A stretch of 64,000 bases of DNA, from contig CP003096.1 of assembly GCA_000233775.1 (NCBI GenBank), forward strand, positions 1,824,501 to 1,888,500, in the 5' to 3' direction. Position 1 is the first letter of the stretch. Every line of letters starts with the position of its first letter. Source of the DNA: Thermovirga lienii DSM 17291. GTDB taxonomy: Bacteria > Synergistota > Synergistia > Synergistales > Thermovirgaceae. The notes under the pieces were generated by a model. The model was not told the origin of the DNA and ran no database searches. It saw only the letters and a program-made list of their open reading frames with translations. A program made the position numbers and the translations under genes. Shown piece by piece: positions 22,503 through 36,588 of this stretch.

Positions 22503-22760
22503 CTAGATGCCCTCTCTCTTGTAAAGTTCTCTGAGTTCCTCCAGGCTAGGGAAAGATATGGCACCACTTGGGCAAAGGTTAGCGCAGGTATTACACCCCA
22601 CCTGACAGTCATAAAAACTTGCTACAGAAGGTTTACCATCAACCCATTGGAACACCTTTTTGCCGCAGTTCATACACATACCGCATCCAATGCACTTCTC
22701 CCTGTCCACCGTCGGCCCCCAATTGACCTTTTCTCTCGGATAACCTGCTAACCACGGCAC
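22503..22760 (-). CDS. Two-cluster 4Fe-4S ferredoxin-like protein
   Basis: This 85-aa iron-sulfur protein has two cysteine groups, CIGCGMCMNC and CQVGCNTCANLCP. They imply two 4Fe-4S clusters with slightly irregular first-cluster spacing. It is a cytoplasmic electron carrier. It follows the universal stress gene (22799-23671) on the same strand, downstream of the arsenic operon. Its redox partner is unknown; ferredoxin-reducing enzymes are plentiful in this window. Confidence 0.8.
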   Translation of the reverse strand: MPWLAGYPREKVNWGPTVDREKCIGCGMCMNCGKKVFQWVDGKPSVASFYDCQVGCNTCANLCPSGAISFPSLEELRELYKREGI

Positions 22761-22798
22761 AATAATGTCCCCCTTCTTGATTGATGAAAGGTATTCAG

Positions 22799-23671
22799 CT
22801 AAAAAGGCATCTCCCAGGATCTCCCCAAGGGTACGACCAGGACATTTGCCGGCGCCCTATGGCTGACCCTGAAGGCACAACTACCCACCCTGAACATTTC
22901 CGACCTTCCCACCCCCTGGGCTCCAACTATGATCAGCGTTGGTTTCTTCTCCTCAGCCTCGGAGATGAACTCGTCTACCACCCTTCCCGTCCTCATTGAA
23001 ACTTCTACATCTTTAACCCCTTTATTCCTTAAGGCCTCTGCCATCTCCTCAAGGCGGCTGAGCTCCAACTCTATGATCTCTTGTATCCTTCCTTTTGCCA
23101 CCACCTTCTCCAGAAGCTCTATATTGCTTCTTTCGTGAACATGCAAGATGGTGACCCGTTTCAACGCTCCTTCCACCTCTTGAACCAAACCTTCCAACAG
23201 TCTAAAGGCATTATATGAATGATCGGAGAAATCTATGCCTATCATCACGTGCTCCAGAGGTTCCTCGAAGCTTCCATCTTCTTTGGATTTGCACAGGAAC
23301 ATGGGCACAGGGCATTCCTCCAGTACCCTGTAAGCCGTCTCACCTAAAAACTTTGTCTGAAACTCCCTTTCCCCTCTTGACATGATCAGAAGAGAAGCCT
23401 TAAATTCATTCACCTTTTCCACTATTGTGTAGAAAGGAATTCCTTTTTCCACACAAACACCCACGTTAAAACCTCTATCCTGCAGCTCTTTCACCTGGCT
23501 TTTTAGCTTTTCCTCATTTTCTCTGTCCAGAGAGGATACACCCTTTCGTTCATCCAAAACATGGAGCAAAAGGACCTCTCCCACCTTTTTAGGAGGGAAT
23601 TTGCCCAGAGCCTTTACCTCGCAGAAGCTTCTCTCCTTTAGGTCCGTGGCCAATAGCACCTTCTTCAGCAT
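22799..23671 (-). CDS. Tandem-domain universal stress protein
   Basis: This protein of about 290 aa consists of two UspA domains (about 1-140 and 150-285). The ATP-binding signature is visible in the second (GAQGVGRSEMFRVGSCAFRVSHRAP). In the first the equivalent SRGEREFQTKFLGETAYRVLEECPVP is partly degenerate. I use the ATG at 23671 (MLKKVLLATDL), preceded by GGAAGGG, rather than a frame 18 codons longer. It is separated from the next Usp gene by a terminator, so it is probably a separate unit with the ferredoxin gene. Confidence 0.85.
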   Translation of the reverse strand: MLKKVLLATDLKERSFCEVKALGKFPPKKVGEVLLLHVLDERKGVSSLDRENEEKLKSQVKELQDRGFNVGVCVEKGIPFYTIVEKVNEFKASLLIMSRGEREFQTKFLGETAYRVLEECPVPMFLCKSKEDGSFEEPLEHVMIGIDFSDHSYNAFRLLEGLVQEVEGALKRVTILHVHERSNIELLEKVVAKGRIQEIIELELSRLEEMAEALRNKGVKDVEVSMRTGRVVDEFISEAEEKKPTLIIVGAQGVGRSEMFRVGSCAFRVSHRAPANVLVVPLGRSWEMPF

Positions 23672-23742
23672 CGCCGATCCCTTCCTTCGCAGAAAGATTA
23701 GCTGTTTCTGTGAAGATTTTACCACGTTTTAGCGTTACATAA

Positions 23743-23780
23743 AACACGGGACCGCTATTTAAGGGGCCCCGTGTTGGTTA
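23743..23780 (-). terminator. terminator of the arsenic operon
   Basis: On the reverse strand AACACGGG and CCCGTGTT pair around a 17-base loop and are followed by a TTATG stretch. It lies 24 bases downstream of the last gene of the arsenic operon. Confidence 0.55.
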
Positions 23781-23803
23781 ACTTTCCGAAAGAGCTTTTT
23801 TGC

Positions 23804-24667
23804 TCAGCGAATTACGAAAACAGAACAAGGTGCTTTGTGTATGATGGTCTCTGTAACGCTGCCAAGCATCATCTCCAGCAGCCTGCTTTTACCCTTGGCT
23901 CCCATGACCAATAGGGAGGGTTTCTTTTCCTCGGCGTATTTAAGTATGCCCGCTACAGGGTGGTCCTCTACTATGTGAGCTTCCACAAAGCTAAAACCCT
24001 TTTCCGCCAGGTTTTGGCGTATTTGTTCTATTTGTCTTTTTTCTTCCTCACTTATTTCCTGGATCTTTTCTGTGCTCATGTACTCCATGGCTCTCGTGTC
24101 GTGGACGTGCAGAATGTCCAATGTAGCACCAGGAATGTCTCCCATCTTCTCCAGGTACGAAAGCGCCTTTCCTGCTCCCTCGGAAAGGTCTGTAACGTAA
24201 AGGATTCTCTCAAATACGCTGTTACATGTAAGGGAGTAGGAGGCTTCCTCCTTTCCTTCACAAGGATAATTCCTCAAAAGCAAGACCGGCTGCCTGGCGT
24301 GATGGAGCACGTTTTCGGCTACACTGCCCAAAAACAGCCTCTTAAACAAATTGGAGCCCCTTGAACCCAACATAACAAGAGAGTAATCTTCTTCCTCCAA
24401 CCTGCGAAGGATTTCCTCTGTGGGATTTCCCTCCTCCAAATAGGTTTCCACCTTTGCGACACCGGCCTCCACAAGGCGCTTTTTCCACTTAGTTAGTGTC
24501 TCTTTGGCGAACTCCACAATCTTAGGATCGCCGTACGTATCGTGGAGGTCCACTACGTGCATCAGGTCAACCTGCTCTACTCCTGCTTTTACCATGTCCG
24601 AAATGCAGGAAAGGTAATTTTCCATTTTATGAGTCAAAACCACTGGAAAAAGAACTTTTCTGAACAT
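23804..24667 (-). CDS. Tandem-domain universal stress protein of the arsenic operon
   Basis: This 287-aa protein has two UspA domains with nucleotide-binding signatures (GSRGSNLFKRLFLGSVAENV in the first; GAKGKSRLLEMMLGSVTETI in the second) and starts MFRKVLFPVV. It begins 3 bases after the acr3 stop, so it is part of the arsenic operon. Usp proteins bind ATP and aid stress survival. A specific link to arsenite is inferred only from position. Confidence 0.88.
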   Translation of the reverse strand: MFRKVLFPVVLTHKMENYLSCISDMVKAGVEQVDLMHVVDLHDTYGDPKIVEFAKETLTKWKKRLVEAGVAKVETYLEEGNPTEEILRRLEEEDYSLVMLGSRGSNLFKRLFLGSVAENVLHHARQPVLLLRNYPCEGKEEASYSLTCNSVFERILYVTDLSEGAGKALSYLEKMGDIPGATLDILHVHDTRAMEYMSTEKIQEISEEEKRQIEQIRQNLAEKGFSFVEAHIVEDHPVAGILKYAEEKKPSLLVMGAKGKSRLLEMMLGSVTETIIHKAPCSVFVIR

Positions 24668-24670
24668 TAT

Positions 24671-25744
24671 CTACACCTCCTTGAACCAGTTTCTGGTCTT
24701 GAGGCAGAAGCGCACCAGCATGAGCATCACTGGAACCTCTATCAAAACTCCTACGACCGTTGCCAGGGCTGCTCCAGAAGAAAGACCGAACAACATGGTC
24801 GCTGTGGCAATGGCAACCTCGAAATGATTGGATGCTCCTATCATCGCAGCTGGCGCTGCATCCTCGTAACGGAGCTTCAAGAGCTTAGCCAGGAAGTACC
24901 CCAGGGCAAAGATCAACGTAGTCTGAACGAAAAGCGGTATGGCTATCCAAAGAACGGTCAAGGGATTTTGCACTATGATATCTCCCTTGAAGGAAAAGAG
25001 AAGAACCAACGTCACCAGCAGGGCTGTTATGCTCACGGGCGTCAGGTAGTGGAGGAAGTTGGACTCGAACCAGCCGTATCCTTTGTGTTTTATGATCCAC
25101 TTCCTGGAAAAGTACCCTGCTACCAAAGGCAAGGCCACGTAAATAGCCACGGAGAGCAAGATGGTTTGCCAAGGAATGGGCATGGCATTTACACCCAAAA
25201 GGAACCCTCCAAGGGGGCCATACAAAAAGAGCATCGTCAAAGAATTTATGGCCACCATTACAAGGGTAAGGCCGTTATTACCTTCCGCCAGATATCCCCA
25301 AACCAACACCATCGCCGTGCATGGAGCTATTCCGAGCAATATCGCTCCAGACACATAGCTTCTCCAAAGTTCCACTTCCTGTCCTGTCTTTATTATCTCA
25401 GTTCCAGGAAGGAAACCTTTGAACAGCACCCCTAGGAACAAATAAGCTATGAGATACATGGAAAAAGGCTTCACTGCCCAGTTGATGAAGAGGGTCAAAA
25501 GCACTGGTTTGGGAGTTTTACCAGCCCTAAGCACCTCAGCGAAATCTATCTTTACCATTATGGGATACATCATGAAGAACAAACAGATGGCTATGGGAAT
25601 GGAGACCTCATAGACCGACATGGAATCCAGCGCCCTAGCAACCCCTGGAGCAACCCTGCCAAGGATTATCCCCGCCACGATACACAAAGCAACCCATAGA
25701 GTAAGGTATCTCTCGAACAACGAAAGCTTTTTCGCACCTGCCAT
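24671..25744 (-). CDS. acr3: Arsenite efflux transporter Acr3
   Basis: This 357-aa membrane protein has ten predicted helices. It carries the conserved [18 protein letters not shown] segment, whose cysteine is essential for arsenite transport in this family, and [13 protein letters not shown] near the start. It exports As(III), or Sb(III) in some members, using the membrane potential. It lies in an operon after arsR, arsC and the small tandem-TGA gene. Length and motifs are normal. Confidence 0.93.
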
Positions 25745-25796: not shown

Positions 25797-26102
25797 TTAC
25801 TCGAACCACAGTCTCAACCTTCCGACGCCCTCCACGAAGAACAGGTAGGAACCATCGGGCATCTTTCCTGTCTCCTCGAAGAAGTCCATAGCCTCCTTGC
25901 TTATCCAGCAGGTTACTTCCTCGCCCTGCACTTCGTAGGGGGTAAAAGATTCGGTATTTTCCGGTTTTCCCAAAAGGCCCGCCGGGCCTCTATAGACCAT
26001 TCATCAGCCCGCTATGTTGGTTCTTACTACTATGCAGAAATGTCCGCCGTGTTCTTTTACCTGCTGAAGCCAAAATCTGGATATCATCCTGATAGTTCTC
26101 AC
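25797..26102 (-). CDS. Small tandem-selenocysteine (UU) protein in the arsenic operon
   Basis: From a GTG at 26102, with GAGGAGG 8 bases upstream, one frame runs 101 residues to TAA if two adjacent TGA codons (26006-26001, codons 33-34) are read as selenocysteine. The TGAs follow a hydrophobic strand FCIVVRTNIAG and are followed by LLGKPENTESFTPYEVQGEE and a C-terminal LFFVEGVGRLRLWFE. This layout, and its paralogue at 30551-30850 with U-C at the same place, resembles the small family I recall as CC/Se motif (seleno)protein. Standard gene callers see only the last 67 residues. It sits between arsC and acr3. A redox or metal(loid)-binding role is inferred. Confidence 0.8.
25973..25991 (-). other. 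candidate SECIS hairpin after the tandem TGA
   Basis: On the reverse strand AGAGGCCC-GGC-GGGCCTTT makes an 8-bp stem (one G-U pair) whose loop starts 18 bases after the second TGA. Distance, stem length and a G at the first loop position all fit bacterial SECIS rules. Confidence 0.75.
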
Positions 26103-26131
26103 CTGCCCCACCTCCTCTTTTAAGTTGCATC

Positions 26132-26563
26132 TCAATCCTCTTGCATAACGCTTTCGGGCAGGGTCTTCACGAAATCCCTTATTTCGTCCCTTACCCTCCT
26201 GAAGAAAGCCAAAACTTCCTCTTCGCTGCCCTCTGCCCTAGCAGGATCATCAAAGCCCCTGTGAACCACCCTGGTATCTCCTGGGAACACCGGACAGGTG
26301 TCTTTGGCATCGCCGCAGAGAGTTATGACCACGTCGAACTTCACGTCCAAAAGCTCCGTGACGTTTTTACTTCGCTGGTTGGAGATGTCCACTCCTGCCT
26401 CTTTCATGACTTTTATGGCAAGGGGGTTCACCGTGCTGGGAGCCGTACCAGCAGAGTAAGCCTCTATAACATCTCCCTTTAACGCTTTTGCCCACCCTTC
26501 AGCCATTTGACTTCTACAAGAGTTTCCGGTGCATAAAAAAAGAACCTTTGTTTTTTTGCTCAC
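26132..26563 (-). CDS. arsC: Arsenate reductase, thioredoxin-coupled ArsC type
   Basis: This 143-aa enzyme of the low-molecular-weight phosphatase fold has an anion loop and catalytic Cys in FLCTGNSCRSQMAEGW. The resolving cysteines lie in TLCGDAKDTCPVFPG (about 80-95). The pattern is that of thioredoxin-dependent ArsC, which reduces arsenate to arsenite for export by Acr3. It starts 7 bases after the arsR stop. A thioredoxin-like domain fused to the adjacent ArsR may be related to its reductant supply or to sensing; that link is inference. Confidence 0.92.
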   Translation of the reverse strand: MSKKTKVLFLCTGNSCRSQMAEGWAKALKGDVIEAYSAGTAPSTVNPLAIKVMKEAGVDISNQRSKNVTELLDVKFDVVITLCGDAKDTCPVFPGDTRVVHRGFDDPARAEGSEEEVLAFFRRVRDEIRDFVKTLPESVMQED

Positions 26564-26570
26564 TCCAGCT

Positions 26571-27176
26571 CTACCTCCTGACGATGTTTTTTTGATGCTC
26601 TTGGAGAAAATCCTTCAATGTTTTTACGATTTCATCCTCCGATGGAACCTTCCCTTCATAAAGAAGCTGTCCTTCTACTGCCAAACTAGGTGTTATAGCC
26701 GTACCGAAGGCCAATATCTCCTCAAGCTCCGACATTTTGATGATTTCAAAATCCACTCCCAAGGAAGAGGCCGCCTTTCTGGCCCTTTCTTCCATGGCAA
26801 GACAGTCTCTACAGTTGGCACCTAGGACTTGGATCTTCAGGACCTGACTCTTGGCCTCTTCTTGCGCTCCACAGTAAGCAGCATATTGTTGGGATATCTT
26901 CTTTTTGATCTCCTTATCAAGGCACGCCATGAAAGGGCCAAGACACTCCAAATCCAAGGAGTAGTAAACTTTAAGCCCCTCTTTATGATCTTTCACGATA
27001 CCGCTTTGCCTTAAAACACCAAGGTGCTTGCTCACGTTGGTCCTTGTGCAGCCAAACCAGCCTGCTATCTCCTGGACGCACCGAGGCTGGGCTGCAAGCT
27101 TCTCAACGATCGCAAGCCTTACTGGGTGGGACAGCGCCTTGAAAATTTCAGCTTTCTTCTCCAAAAGGGAACTCAC
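26571..27176 (-). CDS. arsR: ArsR-family repressor fused to a thioredoxin-like domain
   Basis: This protein of about 201 aa has an ArsR/SmtB winged helix at about 1-95, with recognition helix CTRTNVSKHLGVLRQSG. A small thioredoxin-fold domain follows (about 120-195), with a CxxC in LGANCRDCLAMEERA and the cis-proline segment AITPSLAVEGQ. I choose GTG at 27176, 9 bases after AAGGAG, over the longer TTG frame, whose start abuts the ribosome site. It is first in the arsenic operon and probably represses it at the palindrome just upstream. The redox domain could couple repression to thiol state. Confidence 0.88.
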   Translation of the reverse strand: MSSLLEKKAEIFKALSHPVRLAIVEKLAAQPRCVQEIAGWFGCTRTNVSKHLGVLRQSGIVKDHKEGLKVYYSLDLECLGPFMACLDKEIKKKISQQYAAYCGAQEEAKSQVLKIQVLGANCRDCLAMEERARKAASSLGVDFEIIKMSELEEILAFGTAITPSLAVEGQLLYEGKVPSEDEIVKTLKDFLQEHQKNIVRR

Positions 27177-27191
27177 AGATCTCAACTCCTT

Positions 27192-27828: not shown

Positions 27829-28641
27829 CTAATTAATTACTTCATCTAATCTAACAAAAGTATAACCCTTTTCAAGCAAAATGGGTATTGCTAGCTTCAA
27901 TCCCTCGGCCGTTTCCCCCTCTGGGTGGTTCATGTGGCATATTATTACGTCCCCTGGGCGAGCCTTAGAAACTGCTTCTGTAACCTTTTTTGACGAAAAG
28001 GTTGCACCTCCATCGCCCAATATGCTGTAACCTACTGGCTTCATGCCGAGGTCATAAACTATTTGTACAGCCACATCATCGTAATAATTGGTACCGGAAC
28101 GATAAAACCCGGGCCTTGTACCAGTCAATTTTTCTATTGCCCTGGCTCCTTTCTCCACTTCCTCCCACACTTCCCTTACGCTTGATGTACCTTTTATGCC
28201 GTACGCTTCCTTGCCGTTCACCGAGCAGGGCTTATGACGAAAACCGTGGTTTGCTATCAGAAATAGGGGGTTTTTCTCCAGGTTCTTGGCTTCATCGGGG
28301 TTGTCTCTGATCCATCGCGCATTCAAAAAAAGAGTGGCCTTTATGTTGTTCTCCACAAGAAAATCTACGAGCTCCCTGTCGTAGCCAGAACCGCCCTTTC
28401 CGCCGCAGGCATCCAGCGTCAGCGCCACCTGAAGGCCTGAAGGATCAAAACGGGTGACCACACCAGGAACGTCTTGCCCCCAAAACTTAGGGGTAAGGTT
28501 ACCATAGCGCTTATTTATCTCCTCCAGCGGTAAGGGGGCATTGCGACCTGCCTCAGTTTTCAACAACTCAACTCCAAAGACAAAAGCCCCCACCACTGAA
28601 AGCAATACCAGAAACCTCCAAAAGCGCAAAAGACCGGTCAC
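27829..28641 (-). CDS. Exported polysaccharide deacetylase family protein
   Basis: This 270-aa NodB-fold hydrolase has an N-terminal signal or anchor (FWRFLVLLSVVGAFVFG). Motif 1 is altered to TLDACGG instead of TFDDG. Motif 2 has the metal histidines in ANHGFRH, motif 3 is RPGFYRSGTNYYDD, and the late H is in ICHMNHPEG. It removes acetyl groups from sugars or acts on peptidoglycan. The GTG start overlaps the AOR stop as GTGA, so the two are coupled, although their functions look unrelated. Confidence 0.83.
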   Translation of the reverse strand: MTGLLRFWRFLVLLSVVGAFVFGVELLKTEAGRNAPLPLEEINKRYGNLTPKFWGQDVPGVVTRFDPSGLQVALTLDACGGKGGSGYDRELVDFLVENNIKATLFLNARWIRDNPDEAKNLEKNPLFLIANHGFRHKPCSVNGKEAYGIKGTSSVREVWEEVEKGARAIEKLTGTRPGFYRSGTNYYDDVAVQIVYDLGMKPVGYSILGDGGATFSSKKVTEAVSKARPGDVIICHMNHPEGETAEGLKLAIPILLEKGYTFVRLDEVIN

Positions 28642-30521
28642 CTCACCAAATAGTCCAACCCAAGTTCCTTGAGCTTCTCCCTAGTCGGACGGCCATTTTC
28701 GTCCCATCCTCGGGCCTGATAATACTCCATGAGCATCTTATCGTAATCGGAAATGACGCATTCTGCCTTTTGTGCGTACTTCCCAAAAGCAGGCTGGCTT
28801 AAAATTTTCTTAGGCAAAAGGTCGTCCTCTTTGCTTACCCCTTCTCGCACGTTGAAGGCCCTTTGGGCGTTATATGCCCTTTCTCCAACCTTGAGAAGAT
28901 CTTCGCCTGTAAAATCTTCGCCCGACAACGCTGTCATTAAATCTGCCAAGTCATCTACAGTTACTCCAGCATAGACATAGAATTTGCAAAAGCCCAAGAT
29001 ATCTGGCATCATTCCAAAATCATGAAGGAGCTTTACGGCTTTTCCCTTGCCCTCTTCTTCATACCTATCCACTTCATTGGGATCAGGCAGGCCATAGGAG
29101 ATAAGGCCAAAGTCCATCTTTCCTGAGTCCCAAGCCATTCCCTCAATAGGGTGGATGTGGTTCATTCCTGTGTTGGCAACACCGTAGGACAGCCCCAACG
29201 CTTTGCCTGAACGGGGGTCATGGGCCGGTCCTTCAAGTCCTTTGACGTGGACCGCAAGCTCTTGTGCCCCTTTACCAAGCTCGGACGCTGCTCTTTTTAC
29301 CCCGTCTGCCAAAAGATCTCCAAGGCCTTCCCTCGAAGCTATCTTTCTAAGGAGCTTCAGTGTCTCTTCCATGTCCCCCCATTCAAGAGGGCTTCCCTCG
29401 TTATCGCTGGGCTTTAGGATTCCCTTTTCAAAGCAGTCCATGGCGAAGGCAAGCACCGAACCAGCCGATATGGTATCAAGGCCAAACTCGTTGCAGAGCC
29501 AAGAGGCATGAACTGCTGCATCCACATCTTCGTTGAGCAGGTAAGCTGTAAAGGTGGTCATGGTCTCATATTCGCATCCCTCATGACAAGGGGTCATCCA
29601 TGGCCCCTTGTCAACCTTTGCCTTCCTGCCGCACCTCAAGATACATCCCTTGTAACAAGGCCTTGCCGACACGAAATTGTTCTCCTGAAAATGCTTAAAG
29701 AGCGCTGCGCCCTTGCCCCACGAATTGGCTTCCCAGTTTTTGGTAGGGAAATCCCCCGCTGCATCTGCCCTGGCAAGCTCTCCTGTTGTTCCCTCTTGGG
29801 CCCATATGGCATTTCCCGGGTCGCTTATCAGCCTTCGGCTTATATCTCTACACAGAGCCATGAACTTTTGGGCTTCACGGATGGGGAACTTTTTCTTTCC
29901 CCTCACTGCCACGGCAAGAAGGTTTTTGGATCCCATAACAGTTCCTGCACCACTTCTGCCAGCAGCCCTTGAAGCATCACCAAACATGACCGACGCAAAC
30001 TTAACTAGGTTCTCTCCGGCGGGACCTATACAGCCTACTTCGAAATCGCCGCCCAGCTCATCTTTTATGGCCTTTGTCTTCTTACTGGTGCTCAGTCCCT
30101 TCAGAGCAGGCCATGGGCGAACCTCCCAGCTTCCTTCATCTATTATCAAAACAGAAGGTTCTTCTGCTCTCCCTGTTATAACCACTACATCTATCCCGGC
30201 CTTCCTTAAAGCAGGCCCAAAATCGCTTCCGCTCCTGGATTCTCCCCAAACGCCAGTTAGAGGTGACTTGAAACACAAATCCACACTGCCGCACCCTGGT
30301 GCACCGGTACCTGTCAGTGGTCCAGTGGCAATTACTAGCGGAGCCTCACTGCCTAAAGGGTCATATTTGGCCTCTGTTTCCTTTAAGATTATGTCCGCAG
30401 CAAGCCCAGCTCCTCCCATGAAAAGGTTCAAGGCTCTCTCTTCTGCTTTCTCAACAAAGCATGTGCCAGTAGAAAGGTCTACCCTCAACATCTTTCCAAA
30501 TACAGATTTCAATCCCTGCAT
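28638..30521 (-). CDS. Aldehyde:ferredoxin oxidoreductase (tungsten AOR family)
   Basis: This 627-aa enzyme oxidises aldehydes to acids and reduces ferredoxin at a bis-pterin tungsten (or molybdenum) site. The N-terminal domain ends with the pterin-binding RSGAGTVMGSKNLLAVAVRG. The 4Fe-4S ligands are in CYKGCILRC plus a late C in LGFCKFYVY. I use the ATG at 30521 (MQGLKSVFGKMLRVDLS), preceded by GAGGAGG, rather than an 11-codon longer GTG form. It lies 29 bases downstream of the Sec-Cys small protein, and the two are clearly co-transcribed. Confidence 0.9.
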   Translation of the reverse strand: MQGLKSVFGKMLRVDLSTGTCFVEKAEERALNLFMGGAGLAADIILKETEAKYDPLGSEAPLVIATGPLTGTGAPGCGSVDLCFKSPLTGVWGESRSGSDFGPALRKAGIDVVVITGRAEEPSVLIIDEGSWEVRPWPALKGLSTSKKTKAIKDELGGDFEVGCIGPAGENLVKFASVMFGDASRAAGRSGAGTVMGSKNLLAVAVRGKKKFPIREAQKFMALCRDISRRLISDPGNAIWAQEGTTGELARADAAGDFPTKNWEANSWGKGAALFKHFQENNFVSARPCYKGCILRCGRKAKVDKGPWMTPCHEGCEYETMTTFTAYLLNEDVDAAVHASWLCNEFGLDTISAGSVLAFAMDCFEKGILKPSDNEGSPLEWGDMEETLKLLRKIASREGLGDLLADGVKRAASELGKGAQELAVHVKGLEGPAHDPRSGKALGLSYGVANTGMNHIHPIEGMAWDSGKMDFGLISYGLPDPNEVDRYEEEGKGKAVKLLHDFGMMPDILGFCKFYVYAGVTVDDLADLMTALSGEDFTGEDLLKVGERAYNAQRAFNVREGVSKEDDLLPKKILSQPAFGKYAQKAECVISDYDKMLMEYYQARGWDENGRPTREKLKELGLDYLVR

Positions 30522-30550
30522 ATTTATCCTCCTCTCGGCCGCATCAACTT

Positions 30551-30850
30551 TCACGGAATAATGGCGGTAGATATGAACAAAATATCGCTCCGACGAAGGC
30601 TGCCTCGTTTGAAGCGAACCTCGCCACCAAGGAAAGTCATATCCTTAGGCACCCACAAGGAGACGCCACCCTGGCTTATGAGCCTGTAATTGTCTTTTTC
30701 CCTTGGAGAACCGCCCTGCACGAGGGCTTCTTGTCTGCTGCATCAGCCACCGGTTCTAACTACCACAACATATGCTTCGTTGCCACTTTTCCTGAAGAAC
30801 TCTAAATCTTCAGCCTTCAAAACCAGGCGCTCATCGTTTTGGTTTTTCAC
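30551..30850 (-). CDS. Small selenocysteine-cysteine (UC) protein upstream of AOR
   Basis: From a GTG at 30850 the frame is open for 99 residues to TGA at 30551, apart from one internal TGA (30745-30743, codon 36) directly followed by a Cys codon. The protein reads as a helix (LVLKAEDLEFFRKSG), a strand YVVVVRTGG, then U36-C37, then QGGSPREKDNYRLISQGG, VSLWVPKDM and a basic tail. It is a paralogue of the tandem-TGA protein at 25797-26102: both have V-V-R-T before the Sec position and similar spacing after it. An in-frame ATG 14 codons upstream is an alternative start, with a poorer ribosome site. No protein-coding call covers this otherwise empty 380-base gap. Function unknown; a redox or metal role is inferred. 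Confidence 0.82.
30707..30731 (-). other. candidate SECIS hairpin in the UC small protein gene
   Basis: On the reverse strand AGAA-GCCCT-CGTGC-AGGGC-GG-TTCT makes nine perfect pairs with a two-base GG bulge. The CGTGC loop starts 21 bases after the TGA. This is a textbook geometry for a bacterial SECIS and strongly supports the Sec reading. Confidence 0.82.
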
Positions 30851-33457: not shown

Positions 33458-34375
33458 AGTTACGTCCATATAATTGTGTAAAATTAAGAGCCAAGGCAAG
33501 GTCTCTGGTTTAAAATGGTAAGCGGAAAAACAAACCCAAACCGGAGGTGACCTTGCAATGGCTCAGTACAATATTACCATCGACTCAGAATTACTGCATC
33601 AGTTATTTTTGTCGGACAGTAAGGATTCTGGAGTATCTAAGTTATTGGAGTCGGTATTGAATCAAGTTCTTCAGGCCCAGGCAACAGAACAACTGAGAGC
33701 AGAGGCTTACGAGCGGACAGAGGAAAGACGAGGGTATCGCAACGGAACATACCCGCACAGGCTTACGACGAGAGTAGGGAGCCTTGTTTTGAGGGTGCCC
33801 AGGCTTCGTAATGGCAAGTTTTCTACGGAGCTTTTCAGCAGATATCAGAGGAGCGAACAGGCCTTTATTTTGGCTTTGATGGAGATGGTAGTAAATGGGG
33901 TATCAACCCGTAAGGTATCTGAGATAACCGAGGAGTTATGTGGAGTAAGGATATCCAAGTCAGAGGTGGGTAGAGGAATACGAAGAAAAAGCTCCTAAGG
34001 CGATGAGGATTTTGGAAGAGGGATTTGACGATGCTGTGGCGATATTGTCTTTGCCGGAGAAGTATCGTAGGCGTTTGAGGGCGACCAACAGTGTGGAGAG
34101 ATTGAATGAGGAGATAAGGCGTAGGGAGAGGGTTATACGGATATTTCCAAGCAGGGAATCGGCAGTAAGGTTGCTTGGCGCAGTTCTTCTTGAGATAGAC
34201 AACAAGTGGGCTGGTGGAAGGAAGTACCTTGATATGGATGAGTACTATGAATATCTTTCACAACAGCAATCTAGATCAAGCCCTAAAATCTATTGCCTTT
34301 AACAAAAAATAAGAAAAATGCATAAGACCATTACCAGAGACCAAAACAAATTTACACAAAATATAGGGCTTGACC
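33458..34375 (+). mobile_element. IS256-family element, internally deleted copy A
   Basis: An element of about 918 bp bounded by imperfect terminal inverted repeats: the left end AGTTACGTCCATATAATTGT and, read inward, the right end GGTCAAGCCCTATATTTTGT. It contains only the start and end of an IS256-type transposase. It is almost identical to copy B in opposite orientation. No target-site duplication is visible at either side (CTCTTTTCA versus TGGAGTAAA). Ends were set by comparison with the intact element at 35193-36588. Confidence 0.8.
33558..34302 (+). pseudogene. IS256-family transposase with catalytic core deleted
   Basis: The N-terminal frame (146 aa, to 33998) runs normally through VVNGVSTRKVSEITEELCG and SKSEV. 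It then jumps, out of frame, to the C-terminal part VEEYEEKAPKAMRILEEG and RATNSVERLNEEIRRRERV (to 34302). About 160 residues holding the two catalytic aspartates of the DDE triad are missing; only the glutamate region remains. The deletion also shifts the frame, so no active transposase can be made. Copy B has the same junction. Confidence 0.9.
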
Positions 34376-35192: not shown

Positions 35193-36588
35193 AGTAGTGT
35201 CCATTATGATGGTGTAAAATTGATGGCTTGAAGCAGGAGAGCCACCCCTCCCTCTGGTAGATAAGAAGTAGCTTAATCTTAATCATCAGGAGGGAGAAAA
35301 GATGGCTCACTACCAGGTTACCGTAGACTGTGATCTCTTGCAAGGATTATTTATTCGGGATGATGGATTGGCTCGGTTGGTGGAGAACATCGTGAATCAG
35401 ATACTCGATGCTCAGGCTACCGAACAACTCAGGGCCAAGCCATACGAACGTACCGAAGAGCGGCAGGGGTACCGCAACGGGTATCGGGATAAGCTGCTCA
35501 AGTCTCGCGTAGGAGAACTTACGCTTATGGTTCCCCGTCTCCGGAGCGGGCACTTCTCCACGGAGCTTTTCGAGCGGTACCAGCGGAGCGAGCAGGCGCT
35601 CTTGCTGGCCATGGTCGAGATGGTCGTGAACGGCGTATCCACCAGGAAGGTAAGGGCGGTTGTTGATGAACTATGCGGCACGGAGTTCTCCAAATCCACC
35701 GTATCCAGCCTGTGCAAAAGACTGGACGACATCGTAAAGGAGTGGAACGAGCGAGATTTGAGCAGCCAGGAATACCCATTTCTCCTGGTAGATGCCATTG
35801 TCATCCGGGTGCGTAAAGGCGGCCGGGTACGGCTTTCAAGCGTACTTCTCGCTACAGGGATCAACCGGGAGGGATACCGGGAGATTTTAGGGCTTATGCT
35901 CGGGGATAGCGAATCAGAGGCTGCTTGGTCGGAGTTCTTCGGCCGGCTCAAGGAGCGCGGTCTCAAGGGAGTGGACTTGGTTGTTTCGGATGATCACAAG
36001 GGCTTGATCAATGCGATAGAAACCCACTTCCAAGGAGCGACATGGCAGCGGTGCCAGACCCACTTTATCCGGAACATCCTGGACGCCTGTCCTAAGAGCC
36101 TCCAGGGCGACCTGCACGGGCGACTGCGGTTGATCTTCGACGCGCCGGATATGGAGACGGCCAGGCGGTTGCTGAACGAAACGATAGAGGCCTTTGGCGC
36201 CCGGGCGCCAAAGGCGGTAGAGCGACTTGAAGCTGGTTTCGAGGACGCAATGGCGGTGATGGCACTACCAGGGCGCTACCGGAAGCGGCTGCGCACCACC
36301 AATGGAGTCGAGCGGCTCAACCAGGAGATCCGCCGGCGGGAGCGGGTGATCCGAATCTTCCCTAACGAGGAGTCGGCTGTGAGACTGATCGGAGCAGTGC
36401 TTGTAGAGATCGACGAGGTGTGGACCACAGGAAAGCGCTACTTTGATATGGCAGAGTATTGGGAGTGGAAGGCTAACACAGAAAAACAGCAGAAGGAGGT
36501 GAATAATGCCGATACCCAGGTAAATGTAGCTTAAAACGGGGTGATCTTATCTGCCAGAGGGAATTTACACACAAATTTGGACTTGACC
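35193..36588 (+). mobile_element. Intact IS256-family insertion sequence (1396 bp)
   Basis: The element is delimited on both sides by the 9-bp duplication CTTATACTA. Its ends are AGTAGTGTCCATTATGATGG and, read inward from the right, GGTCAAGTCCAAATTTGTGT. They are imperfect inverted repeats sharing GTCC and GTGTAAA blocks with the deleted copies A and B. It carries one full-length transposase. Its coding region looks richer in G and C than its neighbours, consistent with recent arrival. Confidence 0.92.
35302..36534 (+). CDS. IS256-family transposase, full length
   Basis: This 410-aa DDE transposase has the N-terminal DNA-binding part with GYRNGYRDKLLKSRVGELTL, then catalytic D in LLVDAIVIRVR (about 160). 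The second D is in LVVSDDHKGL (about 230), followed by the C-x2-H type segment WQRCQTHFIRNIL. Catalytic E is in TTNGVERLNQEIRRRERV (about 340). GGAGGG precedes the ATG. All family motifs are intact, so it is probably active, and by shared ends it could mobilise the deleted copies in trans. Confidence 0.93.
   Translation: MAHYQVTVDCDLLQGLFIRDDGLARLVENIVNQILDAQATEQLRAKPYERTEERQGYRNGYRDKLLKSRVGELTLMVPRLRSGHFSTELFERYQRSEQALLLAMVEMVVNGVSTRKVRAVVDELCGTEFSKSTVSSLCKRLDDIVKEWNERDLSSQEYPFLLVDAIVIRVRKGGRVRLSSVLLATGINREGYREILGLMLGDSESEAAWSEFFGRLKERGLKGVDLVVSDDHKGLINAIETHFQGATWQRCQTHFIRNILDACPKSLQGDLHGRLRLIFDAPDMETARRLLNETIEAFGARAPKAVERLEAGFEDAMAVMALPGRYRKRLRTTNGVERLNQEIRRRERVIRIFPNEESAVRLIGAVLVEIDEVWTTGKRYFDMAEYWEWKANTEKQQKEVNNADTQVNVA

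Follow-up and report, generated by a model that had tools for sequence, protein, structure and literature searches.

A Putative Selenoprotein with Two Adjacent Selenocysteines Encoded in Bacterial Arsenic Operons

In an arsenic operon of Thermovirga lienii, a reading frame runs into two adjacent UGA codons after about a third of its length and then stays open for a further 67 codons. Does this frame encode a single protein with two neighboring selenocysteine (Sec) residues, and what would such a protein do among arsenic genes? We addressed this question in the surrounding window, the whole stretch of 64,000 nucleotides analysed here, and in related genomes. The comparisons make it quite probable that the gene encodes a tandem-Sec protein of about 101 residues, with the two Sec adjacent, that acts in arsenic metabolism.

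An Interrupted Reading Frame in an ars Operon

The tandem-Sec gene (UU gene) was delimited from the read-through frame and from orthologues with the same codon pair. It occupies 25797..26102 on the minus strand and comprises 101 residues with a GTG start and a TAA stop. The GTG (26102-26100) follows a ribosome-binding site, AGGAGGT (26110..26116, minus strand), at a distance of 7 nt. After 32 codons come the first UGA (26004..26006, minus strand; Sec33) and the second (26001..26003, minus strand; Sec34), together spanning 26006-26001, then 67 codons and the TAA at 25797. Around the pair the frame reads ...FCIVVRTNIAG-UGA-UGA-MVYRGPAG.... Mechanical ORF calling in the window reports only the 67-aa ORF from the ATG at 26000. 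The initial annotation had described just this arrangement of a GTG with a good ribosome site, two adjacent in-frame TGAs and 67 separately reported residues, and all of it is present, on the minus strand, which had not been named; forward-strand translation of 25797-26102 gave no homologous frame. The window holds 34 TGATGA hexamers, counting both strands; only this site is both preceded by 30 or more open codons that include a start and followed by 60 or more open codons.

The UU gene is the third in a seven-gene same-strand block with gaps of 3-78 bp, in the order ArsR-ArsE/thioredoxin-like fusion, ArsC, UU gene, ACR3, two universal stress proteins (Usp) and a ferredoxin-like protein. Its direct neighbors are the arsC and acr3 genes that had been noted beside it: an LMWPc-type arsenate reductase (26132..26563, minus strand; PF01451; TIGR02691 with 163 bits, not reaching the cut-off of 174) and an arsenite efflux transporter (24671..25744, minus strand; TIGR00832 with 406.6 bits, cut-off 282.8). 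The two Usp and the ferredoxin-like protein (PF00582, Fer4) fill 22503..24667 on the minus strand, with gaps of 3, 78 and 38 bp. The block begins with an ArsR regulator fused to an ArsE/thioredoxin-like domain (26571..27185, minus strand; PF01022 and PF13192; NF033788 and TIGR00412), an unusual architecture for an ars operon. Elsewhere in the window, two related transposase-like genes lie on the plus strand (33558-34302 and 35302-36534), the first apparently split into two ORFs.

A paralogue at 30551..30850 (minus strand) had been proposed for comparison. It is indeed a paralogue, from the CC/Se motif family, and it carries GG-Sec-Cys (UGA-TGC), not a UGA pair. The source genome holds four such single-UGA genes including this one; the other three (L002, L003 and L004) have the motifs G-Sec-Gly, G-Sec-Cys and G-Sec-Arg, the residue after Sec thus varying. 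The gene at 30551-30850 is directly 5' of an aldehyde ferredoxin oxidoreductase (AOR)-like gene (28638-30554, minus strand), and an AOR-like gene likewise lies near its closest relative, L032 in genome G005 (68% identical).

The UGA Pair Is Conserved and Flanked by Constrained Sequence

A search of 188 Synergistota genomes with a protein query reading through stops found homologues of the UU gene in 32, with the UGA pair kept in 30. When a DNA pattern centered on the pair was run against 84,980 species, 35 stretches were returned, including 10 from outside Synergistota that are homologous both before and after UGA-UGA; six stretches (L099, L111, L115-L117, L130) were discarded as chance matches by translation. 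A cross-phylum profile contributed more loci, from Chloroflexota, from the class of the clostridial record L129 and from the phylum of L104. All of its full-length matches contain exactly two UGAs, and one weak Cys-Cys relative was found in G654. Thereby, exact UGA-UGA pairs that align on either side occur in at least seven groups beyond Synergistota: Chloroflexota, Planctomycetota, Acidobacteriota, Eisenbacteria, UBP16/ADurb.Bin243, the phylum of L104 (listed as Deltaproteobacteria/Myxococcota) and the class of L129. A chance origin of the pair is untenable given this conservation. The alignments show no variation in G-U-U or in two additional Gly. The residue 3' of the pair may be Met, Thr, Ser, Asn, Val or Arg, and the downstream ATG is therefore no conserved start. 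One isolate with the gene is Acetomicrobium hydrogeniformans ATCC BAA-1850 (L128). A plasmid collection searched for the gene gave no match. One homologue, L052 in G029, reads EGFCEAY at the site, with neither Sec nor Cys-Cys; its genome has kept SelB, and the protein may have lost its activity.

Pooling seven close pairs gave a pN/pS of 0.19 for the part before the UGA pair and of 0.18 for the part after the hairpin described below; protein constraint thus acts on the unannotated first third just as on the rest. Both UGAs align with TGC/TGT in Cys-Cys (CC) paralogues, and in some genomes such a paralogue (TGC-TGC or TGC-TGT) lies about 2.5-11 kb from the UU copy. In a tree built from few columns, with many forks open, the CC forms are nested inside the UU branch, so that both Sec would have been replaced together; no mixed form was seen. 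The CC duplicates L064, L075, L091 and L094, which share their genomes with a UU gene, offer natural Cys forms for biochemistry.

One Hairpin May Serve Both Codons

Downstream of the pair, an 8-bp hairpin is encoded, as previously noted, with its first base the 10th after the second TGA. This SECIS-like element (25973..25991, minus strand) reads AGAGGCCC-GGC-GGGCCUUU, with eight pairs from 25991 to 25973 and a 3-nt loop (25983-25981). The same form, with the loop 17 nt after the second and 20 nt after the first UGA, is found in Synergistota and in L113, L104 and L124, and a second clade has a 7-bp hairpin with a 4-nt loop at 21 nt and 24 nt. Both spacings fall within the 16-37 nt between UGA and loop given for bacterial SECIS elements (cited by PMC10778597), and therefore a single hairpin could serve both codons, as we infer from its position.

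Stem pairing was kept in 93% of cells in the first set, where 11 cells had changed on both sides, and in 92% in the second, where four pairs showed compensatory changes. In 500 shuffles, the covariation scores of the two clades were never reached. Additionally, the synonymous rate (pS) of the seven close pairs drops to 0.05 in the hairpin codons versus 0.30 and 0.35 in the flanks, about six-fold fewer changes. The folding energy of the window hairpin is by itself not unusual (z -1.2 to -1.8), and a scan of Rfam matched it to no known SECIS family. Bacterial SECIS elements typically carry a G among the first two loop bases. Most UU hairpins follow this rule; the loops of L043 and L045 are CAT. 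A terminator or attenuator was rejected, since covariation is seen in two clades with the hairpin differently placed, and the second clade lacks a T-run.

The source genome carries SelA, SelB and tRNA-Sec. SelB was found in all 10 non-Synergistota carriers and in 29 of the 30 Synergistota carriers, versus 100 of the 158 other genomes of the phylum; the one carrier without a SelB match, G132, is an 86% complete genome. Finally, the AlphaFold2 model of the read-through protein (pLDDT 95.9) predicts a single fold spanning the UGA-UGA junction, in which strands 21-31 and 35-44 lie on either side of the Sec pair.

The Sec-Sec reading of the initial annotation is thus strongly supported: UGA-UGA pairs across phyla, paired CC replacements, upstream coding constraint, a covarying hairpin and co-occurrence with SelB all argue for tandem decoding. 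We propose that SelB and tRNA-Sec would decode the two UGAs one after the other through the single downstream hairpin. Two other accounts were considered. If a short ORF ending at UGA-UGA were coupled to the 67-aa ORF from 26000, no Sec would be involved; the ATG immediately 3' of the UGAs in the window and the mechanical ORF call would suit this, but Met is exchanged for another residue in many orthologues, UGA-UGA is conserved rather than other stops, the predicted fold crosses the junction, and the CC paralogues, as one continuous frame, contradict it. We rejected this coupling as very improbable, and a product made only from 26000, which the initial annotation had named as a point against itself, is unlikely for the same variation after the pair. 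Still less credible, at the margin of consideration, are a pseudogene, a sequencing error or a reassigned code with UGA as Trp or Gly. In-frame UGAs taken alone would be compatible with each of these, but the same pair stands in dozens of independent assemblies, and purifying selection acts on either side of it. Further, UGA ends 11 of the 46 long ORFs of the window, and the pair is replaced by CC, not by WW or GG; these readings were therefore rejected.

The UU Gene Recurs Beside Arsenic Genes

At least one ars gene lies within about 1.5 kb in 30 of the 47 UU loci (25 when ArsR is not counted), versus none of 22 single-Sec paralogue loci from the bacterial family of the source organism; UU loci and their carriers are related to one another, and p-values are indicative only. 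The neighbors ACR3, ArsC, ArsD, ArsA and ArsM, assigned by profile, recur in differing orders across phyla, so that the placement noted in the window extends beyond it. A Planctomycetota record shows ArsC-UU, Chloroflexota show ArsR-UU-ACR3 and UBP16/ADurb.Bin243 shows ACR3-UU; in the class of L129 the order is ArsR-ACR3-phosphoesterase-UU, accompanied by ArsD/ArsA or ArsM. Some UU operons, such as L147, also hold ArsD. Thioredoxin (PF00085) and DsbD_TM/CcdA genes adjoin the UU gene in several loci, and many loci have ACR3 without ArsC, thioredoxin or CcdA. In the remaining 17 loci, which include Acetomicrobium, where the UU gene adjoins an AhpD-like gene, no ars gene was found within about 1.5 kb. 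In ars operons of the clostridial type (L147, L148, L150 and L153; contexts L159, L160, L162 and L165), a gene for a calcineurin-like phosphoesterase is repeatedly found between ACR3/ArsR and the UU gene. The gene neighborhoods strongly suggest a link to arsenic, and the UU protein likely has a role in arsenic metabolism.

Possible Functions of the Sec Pair

How the pair would act is suggested far more weakly. We propose that the UU protein is a component of ars operons whose Sec pair, acting as vicinal selenolates, would bind trivalent arsenic or an arsenic-selenium adduct. The bound arsenic could be passed on, for example to ACR3, or stripped from protein thiols, and thioredoxin/CcdA-type neighbors, where present, might keep the pair reduced. 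Binding and transfer of As(III) is our leading candidate mechanism, which we hold tentatively. Selenolates are good binders of As(III). The small metallochaperone ArsD offers a precedent: it too is encoded in ars operons, and its As(III) site includes the vicinal residues Cys12-Cys13. On these two grounds we favor arsenic binding over diselenide redox chemistry. In contrast to the UU pair, ArsD also needs Cys18; it co-occurs with the UU protein in some operons, and its profile PF06953 does not match the UU protein. No third Cys or Sec is conserved across phyla in the alignments, C65 being near-invariant in Synergistota only, which argues against a three-ligand As(III) site.

A redox enzyme that cycles between Sec-Sec diselenide and diselenol, recharged by thioredoxin and CcdA, is a somewhat unlikely alternative in our view; its tasks could be regeneration of ArsC or reduction of methylarsenicals or thioarsenate. 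The thioredoxin and CcdA genes and the AhpD-like neighbor in Acetomicrobium would suit such an enzyme, and most selenoproteins are redox enzymes (PMC13188914), but the many loci with ACR3 and none of ArsC, thioredoxin or CcdA speak against it, as do a fold that is not thioredoxin-like and the lack of a resolving Sec or Cys conserved elsewhere across phyla. We consider it improbable that the protein handles metals, metalloids or selenium in general, with the ars linkage incidental to a wider role in metal stress. The 17 loci without ars genes nearby are in favor of this, and permeases of the ArsP_1 type (PF03773) include metal exporters, the one permease tested being nearest to the SaoE and SO_0444 Cu/Zn models, without reaching the cut-off of either; against it stands the recurrence of ACR3, ArsC, ArsD, ArsA and ArsM in an order that differs by phylum.

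Returning to arsenic binding by the Sec pair, the family could possibly, though we put this forward with slightly more reserve than the mechanism itself, be the first in prokaryotes with obligatorily adjacent Sec, decoded pairwise from one hairpin and dedicated to arsenic as ligand, that is, a selenium-based arsenic chaperone or de-arsenylating factor travelling with ars operons from phylum to phylum. A conserved bacterial Sec-Sec family would imply that SelB can decode two successive UGAs from one hairpin. It would offer a natural diselenide or bis-selenolate site for study and tie the arsenic resistance of anaerobes to their selenium supply. Standard gene calling leaves only some 61-67 residues of these proteins and misses the active site.

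Comparison with Known Families

The AlphaFold2 model suggests a topology like that of IscA/HesB, in which Sec33-Sec34 occupy the turn joining two long strands. IscA/SufA/DsrR structures were the best Foldseek matches for both structure models (probability up to 0.95, TM about 0.4; no E below 0.001), and a sequence search of the PDB with the UU protein gave no match. The HesB-like selenoprotein profile TIGR01911 and the IscA/HesB profile NF038090 are matched weakly by few UU members (3 of 32 for NF038090, best value 0.00097), and Pfam Fe-S biosynthesis by none of the 32. IscA proteins carry a C-terminal Cys-x-Cys. This motif is absent from the UU alignments, and we therefore did not file the family as IscA.

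Comparison with CC/Se-type proteins had been recommended in the initial annotation. The CC/Se motif family NF041239 (Moor_selen_rel) is profile-related around the Sec site (hhalign probability 96.4, E 1.2e-9), has its Sec site at the same position and is alike in core strand topology in the models. It differs in having one Sec instead of two, and its 22 paralogue loci lack the ars neighbors of the UU genes. NF041239 matches 20 of the 32 members of the sequence set tested; the window protein scores 18.9 bits, below the cut-off of 40, and a clostridial UU relative 42.1, above it, so the curated family shades into the UU branch. We regard the UU proteins as a Sec-Sec branch that is related to the CC/Se family, with the window protein no member by cut-off.

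The prokaryotic selenoprotein inventory counts 119 families and subfamilies, among them the CC/Se family with one Sec (PMC13188914). The UU motif is absent from the 2022 and 2026 prokaryotic inventories, which list UxxU, CU and double selenoproteins. In the literature searched, which comprised papers accessible without subscription, so that an earlier mention may exist elsewhere, adjacent Sec residues appeared only in the algal PDI_e, whose GUGUU motif contains two consecutive Sec and was claimed as the first such case (PMC7539508). That protein is a eukaryotic PDI with a 3'-UTR SECIS and is unrelated to the UU family. Selenoproteins of arsenic metabolism are also known, namely a Sec arsenite methyltransferase, the ArsM fusions NF041536/NF041537 and a Sec arsenate reductase (PMC13188914); unlike the UU proteins, these other proteins carry UxxG, CxxU and UxxS motifs rather than adjacent Sec.
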